The notes under the pieces: model-generated
The model's database searches: none
Told to the model about the DNA's origin: nothing
What the model saw: the letters and a program-made list of their open reading frames with translations, nothing else
DNA from: an uncultured Rhodospirillales bacterium
Lineage (GTDB): Bacteria; Pseudomonadota; Alphaproteobacteria; Azospirillales; Azospirillaceae
Reading direction: 5' to 3'
DNA: 64,000 nucleotides
Assembly (NCBI GenBank): GCA_903920145.1
Contig: CAIXKV010000184.1
Location: forward strand, 1 to 64,000
Translations under genes and position numbers: made by a program
Shown: positions 22,954 to 34,645 of the stretch, one piece after another
How positions within the stretch are numbered: position 1 is the first letter of the stretch
Layout: every line of letters begins with the position of its first letter

Positions 22954-24759
22954 CTAAAAGAGCATGTCTGAAATATCCGGTGTTTTTTCCCCTTCGGGAT
23001 GGACAAGCCCGCCAACTTGGGCTTGATCTGCCCCTGTCAAGAGGTCGACCAGACCGCGCCCACCAACCACAGCGCCATGAATAGAGCGCTCACTGGCCAT
23101 GGTATAGTGGGCCTCGGTAAAGGCTAAGACTTCTTGACGAGCCGCTTCCAAAGCGGCACCACTCAGATTGGGAGCGCTGTCGGTAGCCAAAGCTTTCAGC
23201 TCGGTAACACACCGATCTAAGGGCTCCCGACAGTGGGCGCCACCGGCGAACCCTTCTGCCACCACGCGCGTACTCTCGACCAACGCTCCCCCTCGGCTCT
23301 GAATCCGCCCCAACACCGTTGCAGCCTCGGCGCCAGTGCGACGCAACCGATCCACGGCTTGATCCAAAGCGCCTCTGAGGGCCACCACGTCCCTGGTCCC
23401 TTCGGCACCAATCGTGGTACGGGTGCTAATATCCCCCGCCGTTGCAACCACTCGTCCCAAATTAGCCGCCACGGCCTCCACCTGAGCGCGGGTGAGCGAG
23501 GCGTAGGCTTGCAATTGCTGGGCGATCACGTTCAAAGCCCGTCCCTTGACCCCCATATTGCCGCATTTAATTGAGGCATTGAGCCCCATCAGTCGCATGT
23601 CACCATTAACGCCGTTCAGTCCCCGCATCAGCTCCCCGGCCCGCCCTGCCGCTTCGGCCACCTGCCGAAGGCTCTGTTCGGCCTGTTCACGACTGCTCGC
23701 GAATTTGGCAAACAGCGCGCTTGCGGTTTCCAGGTCTTTTTCAATGTCAAGAAGGGTCAGACCGTCACCACCGAAGCTCTGCTCACAGGCCGCGCCGACC
23801 GCTGGCACGCCTGCCGCCATGGCTGCGAGATTCCGCCCCACGTCATTGACGGCGGTTCGATACCCCTCTTCTGCAAAGGATACCTGCCGCGCCTGAAGAT
23901 CGGCAATGCCATTGACAAAGACCGGACGCTGACCGGAACCCAGCCCAGACGCATCGGGAGCCTCAATCATCTCGGCAGCCACGATCAACGCCCGTTCCAC
24001 ATGCTCGAGTCTTTGACGGGTGATGTCGTAAATCTGCAAGTCTGAAACCAAATCGGCAATATGGGCAAACAGCGAACGCAACCGATCGGGAATATCTCGA
24101 ACCCCGAGCTTGGCCCGCCGCTGCCGCTCGCGCATCTCGGCCATGGCGACGGTCAGACGACCGGCCACGGCGTCCAACTCGCGCAACCCTTCGGCTTCAA
24201 CTGTGCTTTGCAGCGACAGGGCATGGGACGCCGCAAGCCTTAGCGCGCTCAACTCGGTACCGACTGCCGCAATTGTTCGCTCACCACTGAGAGCCAGACG
24301 AGCGATTTCCCGCGTAAACACCGAAAAGTCGACGCCGCTATCATTCAGTTGCGCCGATTCAATTTTGGCATTAATGGCCAGCACCCGAACATCGAACATC
24401 ACGCGAGTCAGGGCCGTCAAGGCCTTCAGCATGACATCGGTGGTGGCCACCATTTCCGCCAAGGATTCGGCCAACCCATCCCGGCGATGCCGCAAGCTGC
24501 CAACCTGATTGGCGGCCTCGGTCAGGCCGGACACCATGGCCTCGAACTCTGTCGACGCCAGCAGCGCGCCTGCGGTTTCGGCATCAGCGGAAAGGGCCGC
24601 AACTCGACCATGAAGATCGCGCAACCGATCGCCTGTGGCCAAAAAAACCTTTTCCAGAGGCGGAAAAAGAACGGCGAAACGCCCAGCAACCGTTCGCAGT
24701 TGCTGGGCCCAAGCCGACAGGGAGTCGCTACGGACAGGGCTCCAGGTATCGGCACTCAT
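22954..24759 (-). CDS. Soluble receptor-like chemotaxis protein with two degenerate hairpin tips
   Basis: The 601-residue, almost entirely helical protein has no membrane segment. Two stretches resemble the receptor tip: VLAINAKIESAQL...VFTREIARLA (about 127-156) and LMGLNASIKCGNMGVKGRAL (about 390-409). Both lack the normal A-A-R-A-G-E core, so canonical receptor signalling is doubtful. Between them is LQIYDITRQRLEHV, with D245 and Q249 spaced like the CheZ phosphatase pair D-x-T-G-Q. The last residues, PDISDMLF, resemble a CheY-docking peptide. The start at 24759 overlaps the cheD stop by 4 bases (ATGA), so the two are translationally coupled. I infer an adaptor or CheY-P phosphatase role in this pathway, but the family is not one I can name. 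Confidence 0.7.
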   Translation of the reverse strand: MSADTWSPVRSDSLSAWAQQLRTVAGRFAVLFPPLEKVFLATGDRLRDLHGRVAALSADAETAGALLASTEFEAMVSGLTEAANQVGSLRHRRDGLAESLAEMVATTDVMLKALTALTRVMFDVRVLAINAKIESAQLNDSGVDFSVFTREIARLALSGERTIAAVGTELSALRLAASHALSLQSTVEAEGLRELDAVAGRLTVAMAEMRERQRRAKLGVRDIPDRLRSLFAHIADLVSDLQIYDITRQRLEHVERALIVAAEMIEAPDASGLGSGQRPVFVNGIADLQARQVSFAEEGYRTAVNDVGRNLAAMAAGVPAVGAACEQSFGGDGLTLLDIEKDLETASALFAKFASSREQAEQSLRQVAEAAGRAGELMRGLNGVNGDMRLMGLNASIKCGNMGVKGRALNVIAQQLQAYASLTRAQVEAVAANLGRVVATAGDISTRTTIGAEGTRDVVALRGALDQAVDRLRRTGAEAATVLGRIQSRGGALVESTRVVAEGFAGGAHCREPLDRCVTELKALATDSAPNLSGAALEAARQEVLAFTEAHYTMASERSIHGAVVGGRGLVDLLTGADQAQVGGLVHPEGEKTPDISDMLF

Positions 24760-25400
24760 GACGGTTCCCCATTTCGCGTGACCGTCCCGCAGGTCGGGCA
24801 TGGTTCACTCCGGTTATTCCCGACGGATTCCCCAGAGGCCCCCCCCCGACTCACCCGCCGCCGCAACAACCGCCGCCGAGGTCCGGCGGCCGCAGCCACC
24901 GCAACCGCAGCGGCTCCTGTACTCACAATCGGTCGTACCCAAACATCGCCACACGCAGTACATTGCAACAGGACAATCCCTTGATCCCCGGCCAATCGTC
25001 CAGCCACAATGGGAATCCGCTGTCGACGCAGCTCCCGCACCGCCAGCCTCAAATTACGGCGTCCGATGGATACGCCTCCGGCTTCCGCCACCAAGACGCT
25101 AGCGCCACCAAAGACCTTGGCTTGCAGGTCTTCGATTTGGCTGCCCAGACTGACCATAGACTCCACCAGCGCCGGAATCGCCACATCACCAAACCGAACC
25201 GAAGGGGCCTCGGTACTTGGCCGAATCGGCAACAAAAAATGATTCATACCCCCAAAACGCAAACGTCGATCCCACAGGCAAACTGCAACACAAGAGCCTA
25301 AAATTGTACTAATCAGGTGCGGCTCACGCTCACAAAAGACTTGCCCCGGCAATAGCCTCAGAGTCGGTCGATCAGGAGGAGCAGGCGGAGCGTAAGACAT
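24756..25400 (-). CDS. cheD: CheD chemoreceptor deamidase with C-terminal Cys-rich extension
   Basis: The CheD core has the nucleophile in TILGSCVAVCLWD, the catalytic His in GGMNHFLLP and the Thr in TILGS. The AKVFGGA segment follows. CheD deamidates receptor glutamines and can interact with CheC-type phosphatases. Beyond the usual end there is CTACGDVWV, an Ala/Arg-rich stretch and CPTCG near the C-terminus. This CxxC...CxxC arrangement suggests a small zinc ribbon. The start at 25400 gives 214 residues. A GTG at 25463 would give 235, and neither has a strong ribosome binding site. The 254-base gap to the upstream receptor gene may hold a promoter. Confidence 0.9.
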   Translation of the reverse strand: MSYAPPAPPDRPTLRLLPGQVFCEREPHLISTILGSCVAVCLWDRRLRFGGMNHFLLPIRPSTEAPSVRFGDVAIPALVESMVSLGSQIEDLQAKVFGGASVLVAEAGGVSIGRRNLRLAVRELRRQRIPIVAGRLAGDQGIVLLQCTACGDVWVRPIVSTGAAAVAVAAAAGPRRRLLRRRVSRGGASGESVGNNRSEPCPTCGTVTRNGEPS

Positions 25401-25653
25401 CACGGAAATCTTTGGTGTGCTTTTGCGCTGGGAAGGACAAGGAAAAGGCGAGATTTTTCCCACCTTTCAAAATCCGAGGCGGGAAACGAGGCTAAGAAGA
25501 CCCAAGGGGTAAGCCAACCGACGCACTCCCAACCTAGCGGTCACTGTAAGGGAACGCCCACCCCTAGACAAGAGAGGTTGTCAACCACAGATCGCTATTC
25601 CGTGGACGTCTCCGCACCCCGTCCAAGACCGCATGCCTCCTTTTGGCTCGGCT

Positions 25654-27801
25654 TCAATAGCGTTCGAAAGCGGCGTCTTCGGAATCTTTATGCGAAGCAT
25701 GCTCATCAAGCTTGAGTTGAAAGCCCTTGCCCCCACTGCTCGCCCCGGCCAGCGGACGCCCGGCCGTCGCCCCCCGGTGGCCGGGCTCGGAACGACGGGG
25801 CGGCTCGGCGGGGATCCGACGAACGAGCCGTTCGGCCCGGTTTCCCGAACGTTCGGGCAATGATGGACGCTCAGGCGGTAAGGCCGTAGGCCGTTGATGG
25901 CCGTTGCCGTTATTTTTCCCTCCCACTCCAACCGCAGCCACGGAAAAGAACGAAATCGTAGCCTGGAGCCGTTGAGCCTGTGCCGCTAATTCCTCAGACG
26001 TTGACGACATCTCTTCGGCGCTGGCGGCATTTTGTTGGGTCACTTGATCGAGCTGTTGAATCGCAACATTAATTTGTTCGGCCCCAGCATTTTGCTCGCG
26101 CGAAGCCGACGTGATTTCCGCCACTAAACTTGCCGTATGTTGAATATCCGGAACCAATTTGGTTAGCATTTGCCCGGCCTGTTCCGAAACCCCCAAGGTT
26201 TGAATCGACAAAGCACCGATCTCAGCCGCTGCCAACTGGCTACGCTCGGCCAATTTGCGAACTTCCGACGCCACCACGGCAAAGCCGCGCCCGTGCTCCC
26301 CGGCCCGCGCCGCCTCAATGGCAGCATTCAGCGCCAGCAAGTCGGTTTGGCGGGCGATTTCCTGAACGATGGTAATCTTTTCGGCGATGGTCTTCATGGC
26401 CGCGACGGCTTTGGCCACAGCTTCGCCACTTTTGCTGGCATCGGCTGCCGATTGGCGAGCAGTCTTCTCGGTTTCAGTGGCGTTATCAGCGTTCTGGCGA
26501 ATGTTAGCTGCCATCTCCTCCATGGAACTGGACGCTTCTTCGGTGGAGGCCGCCTGTTCCGAAACCCCCTGGGACAAGCTATCGGCGCTGGCACTGAGTT
26601 GCTCACTTCCCGCTGCAACATTCTCAGCCGCAGAGCGCACATCGCCTACCACATCGCGCAACCTCTCAACCATCACATTGAGATGATCGATCAAATCGCC
26701 GATCTCTTCCCGTCCGCGATATTCGACTGTTGCGCCCAGATCTCCATCGGCCACGGCGCGAGCCAAACCGGCTGCCCGCCCTAATCCTCGGGCAATCGTC
26801 AAGGAAATCCAAAGGGCGACCCCAATTCCGATGACAATCGAGGCCAAGGCCATAATCATCAACGAGGTCCGCGAAGTGGTATAGGTCTGTCCAGACTCGT
26901 CCACAGCCTCTTGCAAGGATTGACGGTTGAGTTGAATGATGCTGTCTAACGATCCTTCAATTCGCTTGATCAACTCACTATCGCGCCCGGCTGACAAAAC
27001 TCTCGCTTTTTCATCGCCATTTTCGATGGCCAAATCCCGAACCTGTCGATCAAGCGCAACAAACCCGTCCCAACCTCCGGCAAATCGTTGAAATTCAGCC
27101 CGAGGCCCGACGGCGAGGTGATCCCGCACCGCTGCGATCGTTGTCTGGATTGCGCGAAGCTCGCTCTCAATATGTTGATTCTGATCTTTGAGTGCAGCAT
27201 CGTCTTCGACCAATAGAAAGGCCCGTTCTTCGCCCTGAATTCGCAATAGATTTTCCGGCAACTCCGTTAAAACCGTCAACGTTGCGGCATCTGTTCCCGA
27301 TGTTACCGTTCGAATTATATCTTTAAGGGCATTGAAAGCGACCACAAAGGCTTCATCAGCCTTACCAAGCGATAACGCGATTGCCTTAGCACTCGAATTC
27401 AAAGTTGCAAGCTGGACAACTTCATCTTCTGACTTAATCAGATCATCATGAAATTGGGCTATTTCTTCTAATTTTTTACGAATATCTCCTAAAGAAATGC
27501 CAAGCAGGCGTGTCATTTCGTCTTGAATATCGGCTCTTTTCTTCTTAAGGTCGTTCGCAAAATGAGCAATTTTTTGATCATCGGTTTCATTAACTAAATT
27601 CTTCTCGGATCTTGCGAGCAATGAAAAGTCATTCTCAAGCCGCAAAATTAACCGTTGGCTTAACACCGGCCCGCTCACGGCCACATCGAATCGTTGGTTA
27701 ACGACCCCCAGATTATCCACTGCGAGATAGGCCGAAACCGCCGCCAATATCAGCAGTGCTGCAAAAGAAGCCGCCAGCCGAGCCCTGATGGTAAAACGCA
27801 T
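25654..27801 (-). CDS. Methyl-accepting chemotaxis protein with C-terminal pentapeptide
   Basis: The 715-residue receptor has membrane segments at about 9-27 and 313-334 with a roughly 285-residue helical periplasmic sensor. A HAMP domain (about 335-388) and the signalling hairpin follow, with the tip [19 protein letters not shown] (E502 near the turn). A Pro/Arg-rich flexible tail (about 622-690) ends in AFERY, which fits the CheR/CheB-tethering pattern x-[HFYW]-x-x-[HFYW]. It is a close paralogue of the receptor at 28937-31261, with long nearly identical hairpin DNA but a shorter coiled coil. GGGAGAG upstream supports the start. The gene follows cheW by 48 bases. Confidence 0.96.
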
Positions 27802-27849: not shown

Positions 27850-28392
27850 TCAGCCGCCCTGGGTTAGATCGTCCAGAGTAAACACTCGGTTAAGGTTAAG
27901 CACAATGACGAACTGATCATGCCGGCGGCCAATCCCCCGAATAATCTCGGAACGCCAGCGCGTTCCAATCTCGGGTGGCGGCCCCATTTCGCCGGCATCC
28001 AGAGTCGTCACCTCGTGGACGCGATCGGTCAGGGCACCCAACACCAGCGGACGCCCCTCCACCACCACTTCCAACACCACGATTCGCGAACGGTCGGTGG
28101 GTTCGGCAGGCGGCATTCCAAACTTGATCCGCAGATCGATAACCGGGACTGCTTTTCCCCGGACATCAATCATACCGCGCACCCACGGCGGCATATTTGG
28201 AACCCGGCTAAACGGACACAGATCGAGCACTTCTCTGACCTGAGCAACGGTAATGGCAAAAGTTTCGTCGCCAACGCCACAGGTCAAATACTGAACGGCA
28301 TCATCCAAAAGGGCCGGACGGGCAACGGCATGACGTGGGCGGGATGAGGCAAGCTGGGACGTCACCAACGGAGACGTTACGGGCTGGGGCAT
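27850..28392 (-). CDS. cheW: CheW-type coupling protein (copy 1)
   Basis: The 180-residue CheW links receptors to CheA in the array. The CheW domain spans about 32-172, with the typical YLTCGVGDETFAI opening, the PWVRGMIDVRGKAVPVIDLR segment and the GIGRRHDQFVIVLN end. The N-terminal tail of about 30 residues is Pro/Ala-rich and unrelated to the other CheW in this cluster. AAGGA lies about 10 bases upstream of the start. It is 27 bases after the other cheW gene. Confidence 0.95.
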   Translation of the reverse strand: MPQPVTSPLVTSQLASSRPRHAVARPALLDDAVQYLTCGVGDETFAITVAQVREVLDLCPFSRVPNMPPWVRGMIDVRGKAVPVIDLRIKFGMPPAEPTDRSRIVVLEVVVEGRPLVLGALTDRVHEVTTLDAGEMGPPPEIGTRWRSEIIRGIGRRHDQFVIVLNLNRVFTLDDLTQGG

Positions 28393-28419: not shown

Positions 28420-28959
28420 TTACGATAAGGCCAACAGATCAGGACGGATCGGCGCATCCGCACGAATACCGGTCCAGGCTGACTCCTCGGATGCAAACAC
28501 TTGATCGATATTGGCAATAATGATGAAGTCATCACCACGTTTTCCGATCGCCTGGATAAAATCCGTGCGCCAACGCATACCAATCCGGGGCACCTCTTCC
28601 AAAGCCGCCGCCGCCACTTCGGTCACTTCATATACTTTGTCTGCCAGCGCCCCCACCATCGTCGGTTCATCATCGATCCGCACCTCCAGCACGACAATAC
28701 GGGTGTCGCGCGTGTGCGTAATAGAGGGCATTCCGAATTTAGTGCGAAGGTCAGTCACGGTAATGACCTTGCCTCGAACATTAATCAACCCCTTAATAAA
28801 AGGGCGACTGTTGGGAATACGGGTAATCGGCATCAAATCGAGCACTTCATGAACACGCTCGGTTGCGATGGCAAAAATCTCGTCCGCAAGCCCCAAGGTT
28901 AAAACCTGAAGGGAATCGCGACCTCCGGTGGCAGCCTCAATAGCGCTCGAAAGCGGCAT
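28420..28959 (-). CDS. cheW: CheW-type coupling protein (copy 2)
   Basis: The 179-residue CheW domain protein carries [21 protein letters not shown], the [12 protein letters not shown] segment and [16 protein letters not shown]-type end strands. The start at 28959 is chosen because AAGGA lies 8 bases upstream; Met codons at 28968 and 28992 are alternatives. With this start the gene overlaps the last 23 bases of the upstream receptor gene in another frame. The receptor's pentapeptide codons therefore double as the CheW N-terminus, and translational coupling is likely. Confidence 0.94.
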
Positions 28960-31261
28960 CGTCGGCATCCTTATGGTGGGCGGTGGTGGCATCTAATTTC
29001 AGGGCAAAGCCCTTAACCGGACCCAAGGCATGAGATACGCGGTGGGTGTCGGCAATCGCATCATATTTGCTCCCCCCCCCCGCCGGCTTGGCAGCGGCGT
29101 TAGAGGGTCGTCCCGTGGCTGGGCGAACCGGCGGTCGCTGCCGCCCGACCGGCTCTCCTCCCGGCCTCCGGTTTGGCCGTTCTGGCGGAGGCGGAGACGG
29201 AGGCGGAGGCGACGATGGCGTCTGGGCTGGCTGGCGCGGAGCCACTCCCCAGCCATTCTGGGAGACATCAGCTAGAGTGAAGAAGGCAATGGTCTCACGC
29301 AATTGCTGGGCCTGAGCCGACAATTGCTCGGATGTTGCCGACAATTGCGTTGAGATTTCGGATAACTGTGCCGATGTTGCGGATAACTCTTCGGTGGTTG
29401 AAGACATTTCTTCGGCACCGGCGGCATTCTGTTGCGTGACCTGATCAAGCTGCTGAATTGCGATATTAATTTGTTCGGCTCCAGCATTTTGCTCACGCGA
29501 GGCCGAGGTAATTTCAGCCACCAGTGTCGCTGTTCGCTGGATATCAGGAACCAATTTGGTCAGCATTTGCCCGGCCTGTTCCGAAACCCCTAGGGTTTGA
29601 GTCGACAGGGCGCCAATTTCAGCCGCTGCCAACTGGCTACGCTCGGCCAATTTGCGAACTTCCGACGCCACCACGGCAAAGCCGCGCCCGTGCTCCCCGG
29701 CCCGCGCCGCCTCAATGGCAGCATTCAGCGCCAGCAGGTCGGTTTGGCGAGCGATTTCCTGAACGATGGTAATCTTCTCGGCGATGGTTTTCATGGCCGC
29801 CACCGCTTTGGCCACAGCCTCACCGCTCTTGTCAGCATCAACCGCCGATTGACGAGCAATCTTTTCGGTTTCGGTGGCATTATCGGCGTTCTGGCGAATG
29901 TTAGCCGCCATCTGCTCCATGGAACTGGACGCTTCTTCGGTGGAAGCTGCCTGTTCCGAAACCCCTTGGGATAAACTGTCGGCACTTGCGCTTAACTGTT
30001 GACTGCCGGTTGCGACATTGCTGGCTCCAGACGAAACGCTTTCCGCACCCGAGGCCACACTTCCCGCCCCTGCCGCAACATTTTCAGCGCCAGTCACAAT
30101 ATCTTCAACCACTTGACGCAAACGATCGACCATTCCATTCAAATGATTGATGAGATCGCCAATTTCTTCCCGACCTCGATAATCCACGGTGGCGCTTAGA
30201 TTGCCTTCAGACACCGCTTGGGCCAAGCTGCTCGCTCGGTTCAATCCCCGAGAAATAGTCAGGGAAATCCATAACGCCACCCCAAAACCAACAATGATCG
30301 ACGCCAAGGCCATAATCAGCAAATTGATCCGAGAGGTCTCAAATGTATTACCGGCAGCAGCCACGGCCTCTTTCAAAAGGCCATGATTCATGTCGATGAT
30401 CGATTTGATCACGGCGTCGATCTTATCTTGAAGCTCTTGGTTCCGGCCCGATAATAAATCCGTGGCATGGGCCGTACCGTTTTCCACGCCATAGGCCACC
30501 GCTTTTTTATGAAGCGGCAAAAAAGCCTCCCAGGCGGTTTGGAATTGCTGGAATGACGCGCGCTGTGCTGGACTGACATGCTCGCCCAAGGCAACCAATT
30601 GATTCTGAATAGCCTGAAGCAAATGATCGTGATGCTGATTATACTCGGCAATAACTTTGTCATCTGTTAAAAGAATTAACAGAGATTCGTAATATTGAAT
30701 GCGCTGAATTTCGGCAGGAAGCTGTGCCAGAATAGCGGCCCCTTGGGGGTCGGCAGCGCCGCCGCCAGCGTCCCCAACTGCCGACAACCGCTGTATAACC
30801 AGATCAAAGGCATCTCCGGCCTTGCCAACCAAAAGCTCTGTTCCACGAGCTGTCGAATTTTGCATGGCGTAACGGATCAAATTGTCTTGTGATTTTATCA
30901 ATTCCGCATAAAGAGGCTCCATTTCATCCAATTTTTTACGTCCTAAGTCCGTTCCGACCTCGCGCAAATACGTTATTTGCCCCTGTATTTCGGCACGCTG
31001 CGCAATAATTTGATCTGTAATTCGTTTTATTTTATCATCCTCGGTTTGCAGCACCAACTGTTTTTCGAGGGCTGAAAGATTTAAGAAGTCTTTCCGCAAC
31101 TTTTCTTCAATTAAAGCTCGAGTAACCGGACCATCAACGGTTTTATTAAAGCTTTCATTTACAGCCCCAAGATTATTAACGCCAAGATATGCAGAAATGG
31201 CGCTAAGAAATAACACCAACCCGAATGCCGCCGCCAGCCTTGCTTTGATGGTAAAGCGCAT
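28937..31261 (-). CDS. Methyl-accepting chemotaxis protein with lengthened signalling coiled coil
   Basis: The 774-residue receptor is paralogous to the one at 25654-27801 and aligns with it residue for residue to about position 398. It has membrane segments at about 10-28 and 313-334, a helical periplasmic sensor and a HAMP domain. Relative to the paralogue it has two insertions of exactly 21 residues, 399-419 and 627-647, one on each arm of the hairpin. A Pro-rich tail ends in AFERY, a CheR/CheB-tethering-type pentapeptide. AAGGAG 8 bases upstream supports the start. It lies between cheA and cheW. Confidence 0.96.
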
Positions 31262-31323: not shown

Positions 31324-33462
31324 CTAGAATGCTCTAGCACTGGCCTCACGATCACGAGCAAATTTGATCAAATGGGGAATGTCTAAGATAAGCGCCACCG
31401 CCCCATCGCCGAGAATCGTTGCTCCCGAAAAACCTTCAAGATCGCGATGCATCCGTGACAGTGATTTGATCACGGTCTGATGTTGGCCGATGACCTGATC
31501 CACCACCAACCCGACGCGGGCTTCACCCATGGTGACAATCACTACTTTTTGAATCAACTCAGGCTCGCCGGGAACGTCAAACAATCGGCGCAGGCGAATA
31601 AAAGCAACAATCTCCCCGCGAATATTTAAGAAACTCCGACCGCCCGAGCGGATATCTTCTAAGCGAGTCAATTCAACGCACTCTTCAACCGCCGACAGCG
31701 GCACCACATAACGTTCATCACCAACCCGAACCAACAAGCCGTCAATGATGGCCAAGGTTAATGGCAGCTTCAGGGTGATGGCCGTGCCCTGCCCTAGGGT
31801 GCTGGCCACCTCGATGGAGCCGCGCAAACCATCGATGGTGCGCTTGACCACATCCATGCCAACCCCCCGACCAGAAACGCTGGTGACGGCGGCGGCGGTA
31901 GAAAAGCCGGCTTGAAAGATACAGCCAAACAGCTCGGCATCGCTCACATCCTGCCCCGCCTGAAGCAATCCACGCTCCTCGGCCTTGGCTCGGATTGCGG
32001 CCCGATCCAGCCCATGGCCATCGTCTTCGATGGTGATCAAGACCTGGGCCCCGGAATGAACGGCCGATAGATGAACCAGCCCATTTTCGGACTTCCCTGC
32101 GACGGCCCGCCGTTCCCGATCTTCGATACCGTGATCAATGGCATTACGAATCAAATGAACCAACGGATCATTCAGGGATTCGATGACCGTTTTGTCCAAC
32201 TCGGTCTCTTCGCCAGCGGTGGTCAACTCGACCGCTTTGCCCAACTCCCTGGATAGGTCATGCACCACCCGCCGGAATCGACCGAACAAGGTGCCGATCG
32301 GCAACATTCGGATGCTCATGGTGGTATCACGCAATTCCGAAGCCAATCGTTCGATGTCTTCGGAAATGGACTTCAAAAGCGGATTGGCTTCGGCAATGGC
32401 CACTTGCACCAAGCGGGCCTGAGCAATCACCAGTTCGCCGACCTGATCCATCAAGCTATCCAAACGCTCGGCGGGCACCCGAATGGTTCCGCCTGATACC
32501 GTGCTCTCCCGCGCCCGACTGACCTCTCGCAGATGCCGCTGTTCCCCAAGCGCCGAGGCCACCCGGTCTTCGGACACTTTTCCGGACTTGACCAGCAATG
32601 ACCCCAACCGCTCCTGCCGACCCAACCCTTCGTCGACATCTGCCGGAGCAACATCACCGCGCTCGACCAAAATTTCGCCGAGCTTCCGACCAACAGCCCC
32701 GTCGTCTTCGATGGGAATTTCATTGATGCTCAGGTCGGATTGGTCTGCAACGAACAAAAAAATCTCTTCAATGGCCGACTGAGCCGCCGTAGTGGTCAAC
32801 AGCACATCCCAAGCCAAATAGCAGCTAACGGCCTCCATCTCTTCCAAAGTCGGAACGCCATCGGTAATCGGCAGCACGGTGCAGGTTCCCAGCGCCCGCA
32901 ATTCATCCAGTAATGGCAAAGGATTACAGCCAATGGTCAGAACATTCTGACCAGGACGAAAGCGAATGCGAAACACATGCTCGTGCGGAGGCGACACCAC
33001 CTTCGGCGCCGCCGCAGATTTGGTCAGGGGGGACTTGGCCGGGGTCGACTTGAGGGCGGACGATGCATCCCGGTTCTGGTGGCCGCTACTGCCTACGAAA
33101 TCACGAATCGAGGCCAGCAGCGCCTCCCCCCGCAGCCGATCGGCGGTCTCTGGCCGTTCCAGTAGAACCCGAATATGGTCGGCGGCAGCCAGGGTCAGAG
33201 ACACCAACTCTCGGGTGACCTGAAGCTCGCCATTTCTCACTAAGGCAAACGTGCTTTCGATATGATGGGTAAAGGCAGCCAGAGCGTCCCACCCGAACAT
33301 GGCACCCGACCCTTTTAGGGTGTGCAACGCGCGGAAAGCCTGATCAACCAGCGAACGGTCATCTGGAGCCGCTTCCAGGTCGAGCAACGCCCCCTCAAGC
33401 TGGACCAACAGATCAACCGCTTCCTGCCTAAAAATATCCGCTGGATCGGTTCCGCCCATCAT
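31324..33462 (-). CDS. cheA: Chemotaxis histidine kinase CheA with MshEN-like linker
   Basis: The 712-residue kinase has an Hpt domain with phospho-His47 (ALHTLKGSG). Instead of a plain P2/linker, residues 260-308 contain two 24-residue units, KLGEILVERG...GRQ and RLGSLLVKSG...GEQ. These fit the MshEN c-di-GMP-binding pattern. The dimerisation helices come next, then the HATPase with N-box LVHLIRNAIDHG and G box SGRGVGMDVV. The CheW-like C-terminal domain completes it. The start at 33462 is chosen for GGGGAGAG just upstream; the frame extends to 33495. It autophosphorylates in receptor arrays and passes phosphate to CheY, encoded 59 bases upstream. Confidence 0.96.
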   Translation of the reverse strand: MMGGTDPADIFRQEAVDLLVQLEGALLDLEAAPDDRSLVDQAFRALHTLKGSGAMFGWDALAAFTHHIESTFALVRNGELQVTRELVSLTLAAADHIRVLLERPETADRLRGEALLASIRDFVGSSGHQNRDASSALKSTPAKSPLTKSAAAPKVVSPPHEHVFRIRFRPGQNVLTIGCNPLPLLDELRALGTCTVLPITDGVPTLEEMEAVSCYLAWDVLLTTTAAQSAIEEIFLFVADQSDLSINEIPIEDDGAVGRKLGEILVERGDVAPADVDEGLGRQERLGSLLVKSGKVSEDRVASALGEQRHLREVSRARESTVSGGTIRVPAERLDSLMDQVGELVIAQARLVQVAIAEANPLLKSISEDIERLASELRDTTMSIRMLPIGTLFGRFRRVVHDLSRELGKAVELTTAGEETELDKTVIESLNDPLVHLIRNAIDHGIEDRERRAVAGKSENGLVHLSAVHSGAQVLITIEDDGHGLDRAAIRAKAEERGLLQAGQDVSDAELFGCIFQAGFSTAAAVTSVSGRGVGMDVVKRTIDGLRGSIEVASTLGQGTAITLKLPLTLAIIDGLLVRVGDERYVVPLSAVEECVELTRLEDIRSGGRSFLNIRGEIVAFIRLRRLFDVPGEPELIQKVVIVTMGEARVGLVVDQVIGQHQTVIKSLSRMHRDLEGFSGATILGDGAVALILDIPHLIKFARDREASARAF

Positions 33463-33521
33463 CGCGCTCTCCCCCCTTGCCACTTGGGTCTCCACCGCGC
33501 GCGACTTCAGAGGAGCTGTCT

Positions 33522-33887
33522 TTAACCAAGCACCCTCTTGATCACCGCCAGCAATTGATCCTGTTTAAACGGTTTGACGATCCAGCCAGTGGCACCGGCG
33601 GCCCGCCCCTCCTGCTTACGAGTCTCTTCGGACTCGGTCGTCAATAAAACGATCGGCAGGAATTTGAAAGCCGGCATGGCGCGCACCTGCCGAACCAATT
33701 CTATCCCGTCCAGGTTAGGCATATTGAGGTCAGTGACGATCAGGTCAACCGGTACCGCTTTCAATCGCACCAGAGCATCGCGTCCGTCAACCGCTGACAC
33801 CACGTCATAACCGGCGGCCTCCAGCGTGAACGTCACCATTTGACGCACGCTTGCCGAATCATCAACGCACAAAATCTTCTTCTTCAT
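33522..33887 (-). CDS. cheY: CheY-type response regulator
   Basis: The 121-residue single-domain receiver has its acidic pocket at CVDDS, the phospho-Asp in IVTDLNMPNLDG, the switch residue in LLTTES and the conserved Lys in VKPF. It would receive phosphate from CheA and act on the flagellar switch or another output. The start at MKKKILC (33887) removes an implausible 56-residue upstream extension. It sits 7 bases after the STAS gene and 59 bases before cheA. Receiver proteins at the head of such clusters are sometimes phosphate sinks rather than motor-binding CheY, and that cannot be decided here. Confidence 0.93.
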   Translation of the reverse strand: MKKKILCVDDSASVRQMVTFTLEAAGYDVVSAVDGRDALVRLKAVPVDLIVTDLNMPNLDGIELVRQVRAMPAFKFLPIVLLTTESEETRKQEGRAAGATGWIVKPFKQDQLLAVIKRVLG

Positions 33888-33894
33888 GGTCCGG

Positions 33895-34269
33895 TCAACC
33901 CTCTCCGCGCCAGAACCGATCATGAGAGACGATGGCTTTGCCGCTCCCCCCCTCGACGAACCCCGCAGTGACCAGCGCCGCGCGCAAGGCCCCTTCGGGT
34001 GACCGCGCCAGCCGGACGGCTTTTCCGGCCCGTTCGGCGCTATGCCGCAAAGCAATCAATAGCTGAAGGCCCGCCGCGTCCACAACGTCTAGGCCCGAGC
34101 AGTCAAGCTCGATCGGATCGGTTCCGGCCAAGACCGACAAGAACTCGGCCCGTCGCTCTTCGGCCTCCCGCAACGTCAACCGCCCCGTCAGAGCCAAACG
34201 CCGCCACCCCGTCGAAGCTCCCGCCGCCACTTGACCGACGCGCGTGTCGCCGCTGTCATTCTGTCCCAT
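33895..34269 (-). CDS. STAS-domain protein (anti-sigma-antagonist fold)
   Basis: The 124-residue product has one STAS domain (about 20-110): LALTGRLTLREA, then ELDCSGLDVVDAAGLQLLIAL. In SpoIIAA-type antagonists a Ser or Thr in D-[ST]-[AS]-G is phosphorylated; here the segment is D-A-A-G, so that site is absent. It leads the cheY-cheA transcript, suggesting a structural or partner-binding role in the chemosensory system. The start at 34269 (MGQND) has GGTGA upstream. A GTG at 34278 is possible. Confidence 0.85.
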   Translation of the reverse strand: MGQNDSGDTRVGQVAAGASTGWRRLALTGRLTLREAEERRAEFLSVLAGTDPIELDCSGLDVVDAAGLQLLIALRHSAERAGKAVRLARSPEGALRAALVTAGFVEGGSGKAIVSHDRFWRGEG

Positions 34270-34645
34270 AGCGATCACCCATCGTTCGACCCCATGGCGC
34301 CATTACCCTTGAAGAGCGCCGCACAATCGAACGCCAGCTATACCTGCCCAAACAATCCAGGCAAGCTGTCATGGAGCGCCCAATTCGTCAATCACATTCT
34401 TTTGAATTCGTTACTAATGCTACCTATCCATCGCTTCAGCCGAAATATGAGCTTGCAGATGAATTTTTATGAAAAATAAACTCTAACCATTACAGCGTAT
34501 CTCTGTTTCATCTTCAACCTTACCAATATCAAATCAAGCTTCTATCCGAACGAACGAACGCAGACTCAGGCCAACGACCGATGACCCGGCCCGCCACGCC
34601 TCGAAACTGACCACAAGAGTGTTTTAAAAGCCCGGCGTGTTTATT
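34270..34645. other. Intergenic region upstream of STAS-cheY-cheA
   Basis: This stretch of about 375 bases probably holds the promoter of the chemotaxis operon. I see no gene, no strong hairpin and no promoter pair I would defend. A short CGAA tandem (CGAACGAACGAACG, about 34549-34562) is the only local irregularity. Confidence 0.4.

Follow-up and report, generated by a model that had tools for sequence, protein, structure and literature searches.

A chemoreceptor lengthened by three heptads on each hairpin arm beside its shorter paralogue in a putative F8-type gene cluster

Two adjacent chemoreceptor genes, receptors A and B, encode hairpins that differ by 21 residues, or three heptads, on each arm, and sequence comparison identifies the longer one, B, as a 34H-derived receptor of 40H length and not as a canonical member of the 40H class. 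Chemoreceptor length classes differ by paired heptads, and the classes are old. What is new here is a derived and conserved change from 34H to 40H length in one of two adjacent paralogues whose tips appear to have been converted; the literature searched held no case of one receptor lineage changing class beside an unchanged sister in the same operon with a tip held by conversion. The length difference had been noticed in an earlier sequence-only reading of this DNA. The observation is real and well described at the level of sequence, and its interpretation was in part mistaken.

The gene cluster and its two receptors

Both receptors are encoded on the minus strand of the window, the whole 64,000-nt stretch of DNA that was analysed, which comes from the genome designated G000. 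The cluster is transcribed in the order STAS, CheY, CheA, receptor B, CheW2, CheW1, receptor A, CheD, a conserved 615-aa protein and a further receptor, and contains one CheA and two CheWs. By position, the genes are:

22954..24801, minus strand: conserved cluster protein of 615 aa with weak MCP-hairpin similarity
24756..25463, minus strand: CheD
25654..27801, minus strand: receptor A, 715 aa, with the architecture of B, a 34H hairpin and the C-terminus ...AFERY
27850..28392, minus strand: CheW1 (Pfam CheW, 1.8e-34), between CheW2 and receptor A
28420..28992, minus strand: CheW2 (Pfam CheW, 2.4e-28), overlapping the end of receptor B
28937..31261, minus strand: receptor B, 774 aa, with a 4HB sensor domain, two TM helices, HAMP, a long hairpin (40H length) and the C-terminus ...AFERY
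31324..33495, minus strand: CheA, with Hpt, dimerisation, ATPase and CheW-like domains
33522..34055, minus strand: CheY-like response regulator, the annotated ORF start probably too far upstream
33895..34278, minus strand: STAS-domain protein

Matches above cut-off to PF00015, PF00672 and PF12729 mark both A and B as methyl-accepting chemotaxis proteins. Receptors of the 34H class have been tied to F8 systems (PMC7184735, PMC11253619), and the gene order here places a 34H receptor together with CheA. From the 34H receptors and the neighbourhood, rather than from published class profiles, we infer that the cluster is of the F8 type. Its CheA has relatives by similarity in Bradyrhizobium, Pseudomonas and others.

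Several features of the cluster deserve mention in their own right. The C-terminal ...FERY of A (25657-25671, minus strand) and B (28940-28954, minus strand) recurs in nearly all F8 relatives of the genus and fits the aromatic-x-x-aromatic pattern of CheR/CheB docking. Neither CheR nor CheB is encoded within the stretch of the window from STAS to CheD, and in two related genomes (G002 and G004) CheR and CheB occupy the position of receptor A. Residues 271-319 of CheA, located between the Hpt region and the dimerisation domain, match an NCBIfam MshE-related cyclic di-GMP-binding domain with 35.4 bits, just below the cut-off of 38, and c-di-GMP input to the kinase is a possibility raised by this match. 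The 615-aa protein (22954-24801, minus strand) carries two stretches that resemble degenerate receptor hairpin tips (LAINAKIESAQL... and LMGLNASIKCGN...) and has an MCPsignal match below cut-off; it might be a 'methyl-accepting coiled-coil' (MAC) protein as named by MiST.

The inserts, their placement and the length classes

Global alignment of A and B opens exactly two gaps in the hairpin, of 21 residues each, with no gap between them, and the open reading frames and their lengths agree with the earlier description of two 21-residue inserts in the longer receptor. The two proteins had also been said to align without gaps up to residue 398, which holds overall, although the optimal alignment includes a compensated two-residue gap pair near residues 98-108. 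Every possible position of the inserts was scored using three B orthologues against 15 shorter relatives. Relative to the tip residue (E502 in A, E523 in B), the best N-arm placement (residues 398/399-418/419) lies 104-125 residues away; two C-arm placements, 622-642 and 629-649, are nearly tied and cover a distance of 99-126 residues. The similarity of the inserted heptads to the adjoining ones blurs the placement, and the exact C-arm insertion point cannot be fixed. The corresponding coordinates are:

30005..30067, minus strand: N-arm insert of B, residues 399-419, three heptads
29315..29398, minus strand: range that contains the 21 residues of the C-arm insert of B, residues 622-649
29321-29383, minus strand: C-arm insert as placed in the sequence-only reading, residues 627-647

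Counting residues, as opposed to using model coordinates, places the two inserts opposite each other to within about one heptad. Their proposed facing positions, 104 and 103 residues from the tip, agree with this result, and residues 627-647 fall within the C-arm range. Checking the hairpin alignment for non-facing or non-heptad indels returned only facing inserts of three whole heptads. The inserted stretches on both arms are themselves heptad repeats, as had been proposed; they are low-complexity Ala/Gly/Ser sequences near the membrane-proximal end of the hairpin. B orthologues from two more species (G001 and G003) have them too, and they are therefore not an assembly or sequencing error. 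In an AlphaFold model of B, a monomer (pTM 0.45) used solely to assess helicity, the helices run unbroken through both inserts, with pLDDT values of ~83-88 at the inserts. The best structural matches of the model are chemoreceptor cytoplasmic domains.

Two rulers, alignment to full-length E. coli Tsr (36H) and the distance from the HAMP motif to the tip, were used to assign length classes in place of class-profile scoring. The regular expression for HAMP missed most 38H receptors, and no 38H class call rests on it. Aligned to Tsr, A shows exactly one 7-residue gap on each arm and is therefore a 34H receptor, with 17 heptads per arm, one fewer than Tsr. The additional 21 residues per arm give B 20 heptads per arm and the 40H length. 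The distance from HAMP motif to tip is 137 residues in A and 158 in B, compared to 144 in several Tsr-like 36H receptors and 158 in a Pseudomonas 40H-type receptor (L101). Facing whole-heptad inserts that separate a 34H from a 40H length bear out the idea of a length-class difference by paired heptads. By descent and sequence pattern, B is not a canonical 40H receptor. The comparison points to a lengthened 34H receptor because B still has the F8 tip RAGEHGRGF and the sub-tip loss of heptads that characterises the 34H family, and because its inserts lie near the HAMP end.

The E. coli receptors Tsr and Tar (36H) have a fold in common with A and B, yet each of their arms has one heptad more than in A and two fewer than in B. 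The F8 34H receptors (such as PSPTO_0912 and Methylomicrobium F8) resemble A, as well as B in its tip and sub-tip, and have a single HAMP in common with both; they are encoded beside CheA, CheW and CheD and end in an F-x-x-Y tail that resembles CheR-docking pentapeptides, as here. The window differs from them in the three extra heptads per arm of B and in the presence of receptors of unequal length in one cluster. B equals the canonical 40H receptors of F6 systems (Pseudomonas, Vibrio) in HAMP-to-tip length, as measured in L101, but differs from them in its RAGEHGRGF tip, 34H sub-tip deletions and F8-like sensor, and in having membrane-proximal inserts found in the B lineage alone.

Descent of the long form and exchange between the hairpins

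We compared five genomes of the genus of the window (G000-G004). G003 encodes both A and B, G001 encodes B only, and G002 and G004 carry a single receptor between CheA and CheW2. Both inserts are present in all three B orthologues (G000, G001 and G003), and neither is present in A or in ~45 other F8-type receptors aligned. The insert-free set comprised all A receptors, the one receptor each of G002 and G004, the remaining F8-type receptors in these genomes, and receptors from other genera of the family and from Bradyrhizobium, Bosea, Lichenifustis, Syntrophus and Accumulibacter. When 82 genomes of the family were searched with the B hairpin, the three B orthologues alone gave full-length matches that extend across both inserts, and none of the aligned F8-type receptors had an insert on a single arm. 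The polarity from 34H to 40H length follows because A and every other related receptor aligned are 34H, and these comparisons date the gain to the B lineage before the three species split. Given that the B proteins of these species share only ~63-68% of their LBD residues, the gain is not a fresh event. What had been described as a natural snapshot of a length-class switch is a real change within one lineage, but an old one. A 46-residue stretch of the N arm is 76% identical among the B orthologues, and insert lengths stay at exactly 21 residues in all three.

The single receptor of G002 and G004 was considered as a short one-to-one orthologue of B. Gene order fits this assignment, but the LBD and CheA trees do not, as they place G002 and G004 nearer to, or unresolved from, a second cluster; the two genomes were therefore used as outgroups only.

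At the protein level, each arm of B looks as if one heptad had been expanded to four (AENVAAG and TSEELSA). A 21-bp tandem duplication was rejected as the visible origin of the inserts, since the identity of 21-bp repeats at synonymous sites showed no excess on the N arm (p 0.06-0.31) and a weak excess on the C arm (p 0.004-0.18). Among the loci collected, none of the other receptors has the inserts and could have donated them, and the inserted heptads are similar to the heptad that flanks the site in 34H relatives. The inserts are likely, though not proven, to have arisen by expansion of the adjacent heptad.

The sequence-only reading had taken A and B to be otherwise near-identical genes, which does not hold outside of the hairpin. 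The sensor domains (first 330 residues) are 39% identical and agree at 33% of four-fold sites, whereas the hairpins are 95% identical between the inserts, with a silent-site agreement of 59-96%. The synonymous sites of the sensor domains are unrelated, and A and B are old paralogues. The tracts concerned are:

29417..29992, minus strand: putatively homogenised tract, B side, residues 424-615, between the two inserts
26020..26595, minus strand: putatively homogenised tract, A side, residues 403-594
29619..29736, minus strand: exact 118-bp match at the tip of B, identical to A 26222-26339

In a quartet test with A and B from G000 and G003, grouping by species outnumbers grouping by orthology 50 to 4 at hairpin sites, but the LBD has 27 sites for species and 126 for orthology, and the tail 4 and 27 (Fisher p ~2e-23 for the site patterns). 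Quartets of non-adjacent or unlinked paralogues lacked this within-species excess (third positions 19/13/13). The trees differ in the same way: the LBD protein tree separates an A clade from a B clade, grouping by orthology, and the hairpin DNA tree joins A and B of G000 and, separately, A and B of G003. At the four-fold sites of the tip, A and B of G000 agree in 27 of 28, compared to 18 of 29 between B orthologues, 14 of 27 between A orthologues and 6 of 27 between B and an unlinked F8 receptor of G000. Silent-site similarity is higher within species than between orthologues and has sharp flanks, as in gene conversion. The near-identity of the A and B hairpins is best explained by gene conversion within each species, ongoing since the species split, and the site patterns confine it mostly to the stretch bounded by the inserts. 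It is most improbable that selection and codon preference produced this identity with no conversion at all: conservation in all such receptors is highest at the tip, and third positions agree somewhat more often in other pairs too, but the tip counts run against it, and codon preference is not the cause because the unlinked F8 receptor agrees so little with B and the unlinked quartets show no excess.

Two proposed receptor heights under one kinase

In P. syringae, a 34H receptor with 165 residues from TM to tip forms 20-nm arrays and a 40H receptor with 187 residues forms 23-nm arrays, and both arrays are visible in the wild type (PMC11253619). The corresponding TM2-to-tip counts are 160 in A and 182 in B. 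A heptad pair measures 10.5 Å and a HAMP 35 Å (PMC6628036), and receptors of different length reportedly segregate, with a 14-residue insertion being enough (PMC6759762). We propose that A and B were tandem paralogues of one F8-type cluster that would both have docked originally via a 34H-type hairpin. In the ancestor of the three species, B gained its three heptads per arm immediately on the membrane side of the methylation region. Since each arm grew by complete heptads, HAMP, methylation region and tip stay in phase, and the tip of B would lie ~3 nm farther out from the membrane. Conversion between the two genes then kept the CheA/CheW-binding tip uniform, leaving length and sensor domains distinct. 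The two receptors would have a common CheA/CheW baseplate chemistry at heights of ~20 and ~23 nm and, judging from other receptors, would form separate patches or arrays under one kinase instead of mixed trimers. One CheA/CheW set is expected for both because their tips are identical, and gene neighbourhood and tip identity together suggest that the single CheA serves A and B alike. We regard this whole account, with a lengthened B, a converted hairpin, one baseplate chemistry and two heights in separate arrays, as probable.

The height-matched or segregated arrays of Azospirillum brasilense (36H/38H, two CheAs; PMC6759762) likewise combine unequal receptors in a cell, with height differences of ~3 nm, but their classes are old and unrelated by recent descent, whereas the two lengths in the window belong to adjacent sister paralogues with putatively converted tips and one CheA. 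A strain with the A-B cluster could reveal whether stalk length alone sets the array of a receptor; with the sister in the same operon and the tips made identical by conversion, the usual confounders would be removed.

Alphaproteobacterial F8 clusters with at least two receptors nearly always combine a short one (TM2-to-tip 160-164) with a long one (199-204 or 238-242), though many of the Bradyrhizobium cases in this survey are not independent. The long partners exceed the short ones by 39-44 or 78-82 residues, resembling one or two extra HAMP-like units; the long member of the window cluster instead has 21 more residues on each arm. The pair on contig C67 of G002 is of equal length, and the receptors of two beta-proteobacterial clusters are nearly so. 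Since related clusters repeatedly pair a short with a long receptor, two heights are perhaps a working feature of these systems, and B may be the long partner of its pair, made in another way. Only tentatively can this be extended to the view that alphaproteobacterial F8 systems are built on a short/long pair with one kinase, the long member here arising through heptads and the tips being matched by conversion. Pfam was set aside as proof that the 39-residue unit is a HAMP, because, even at a lax threshold, a second HAMP stretch scored in only two of the five receptors with the extra unit.

The same survey bears on a different reading of the length gain, which we think rather unlikely, in which B is height-matched: its three heptad pairs (~3.15 nm) would replace a HAMP-like unit, and B would pack with the two-HAMP 34H receptors of the cell. 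The pairing of 160 with 182 residues in the window, beside the larger steps of other F8 clusters, is compatible with such an exchange, as are the published dimensions of HAMP and heptad pair. Receptors of A. brasilense trade linker for domain to equal height (PMC6759762), and contig C216 of G000 encodes a receptor with one extra unit. Pulling the other way are the low Pfam recovery of a second HAMP and our own estimate that each concatenated HAMP may add a length along the axis closer to 2.3-2.6 nm than to 3.5 nm. Less plausible is a neutral length difference, with A and B mixed in a single array where flexible regions or the membrane take up the 3 nm. The close match of the hairpins between the inserts and the low-complexity, membrane-proximal nature of the inserted heptads would suit it, but not the constancy of the inserts at 21 residues in three species despite sequence drift in the N arm. 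There is very little to recommend the idea that B is a genuine member of the canonical 40H class in which recombination replaced the hairpin tip with one of the F8/34H kind: hairpin conversion and a 40H length speak for it, but the sensor domain, TM and HAMP of B group with A (fair support) and with other F8 receptors (strong support), and the inserted heptads resemble those flanking the site in 34H relatives and match no other receptor collected. The lengthened 34H receptor remains our preferred reading of B.

On contig C216 of G000 (L139 12485-17418), two further F8 receptors lie in tandem together with a CheW and with no CheA seen nearby, and the counterpart of this cluster on contig C17 of G001 includes a CheA. 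The C216 pair may depend on the CheA of the window. In its 4.26 Mb, the whole G000 genome has 71 MCP-signal matches and only five matches to the CheA dimerisation domain, an extreme ratio of receptors to kinases.
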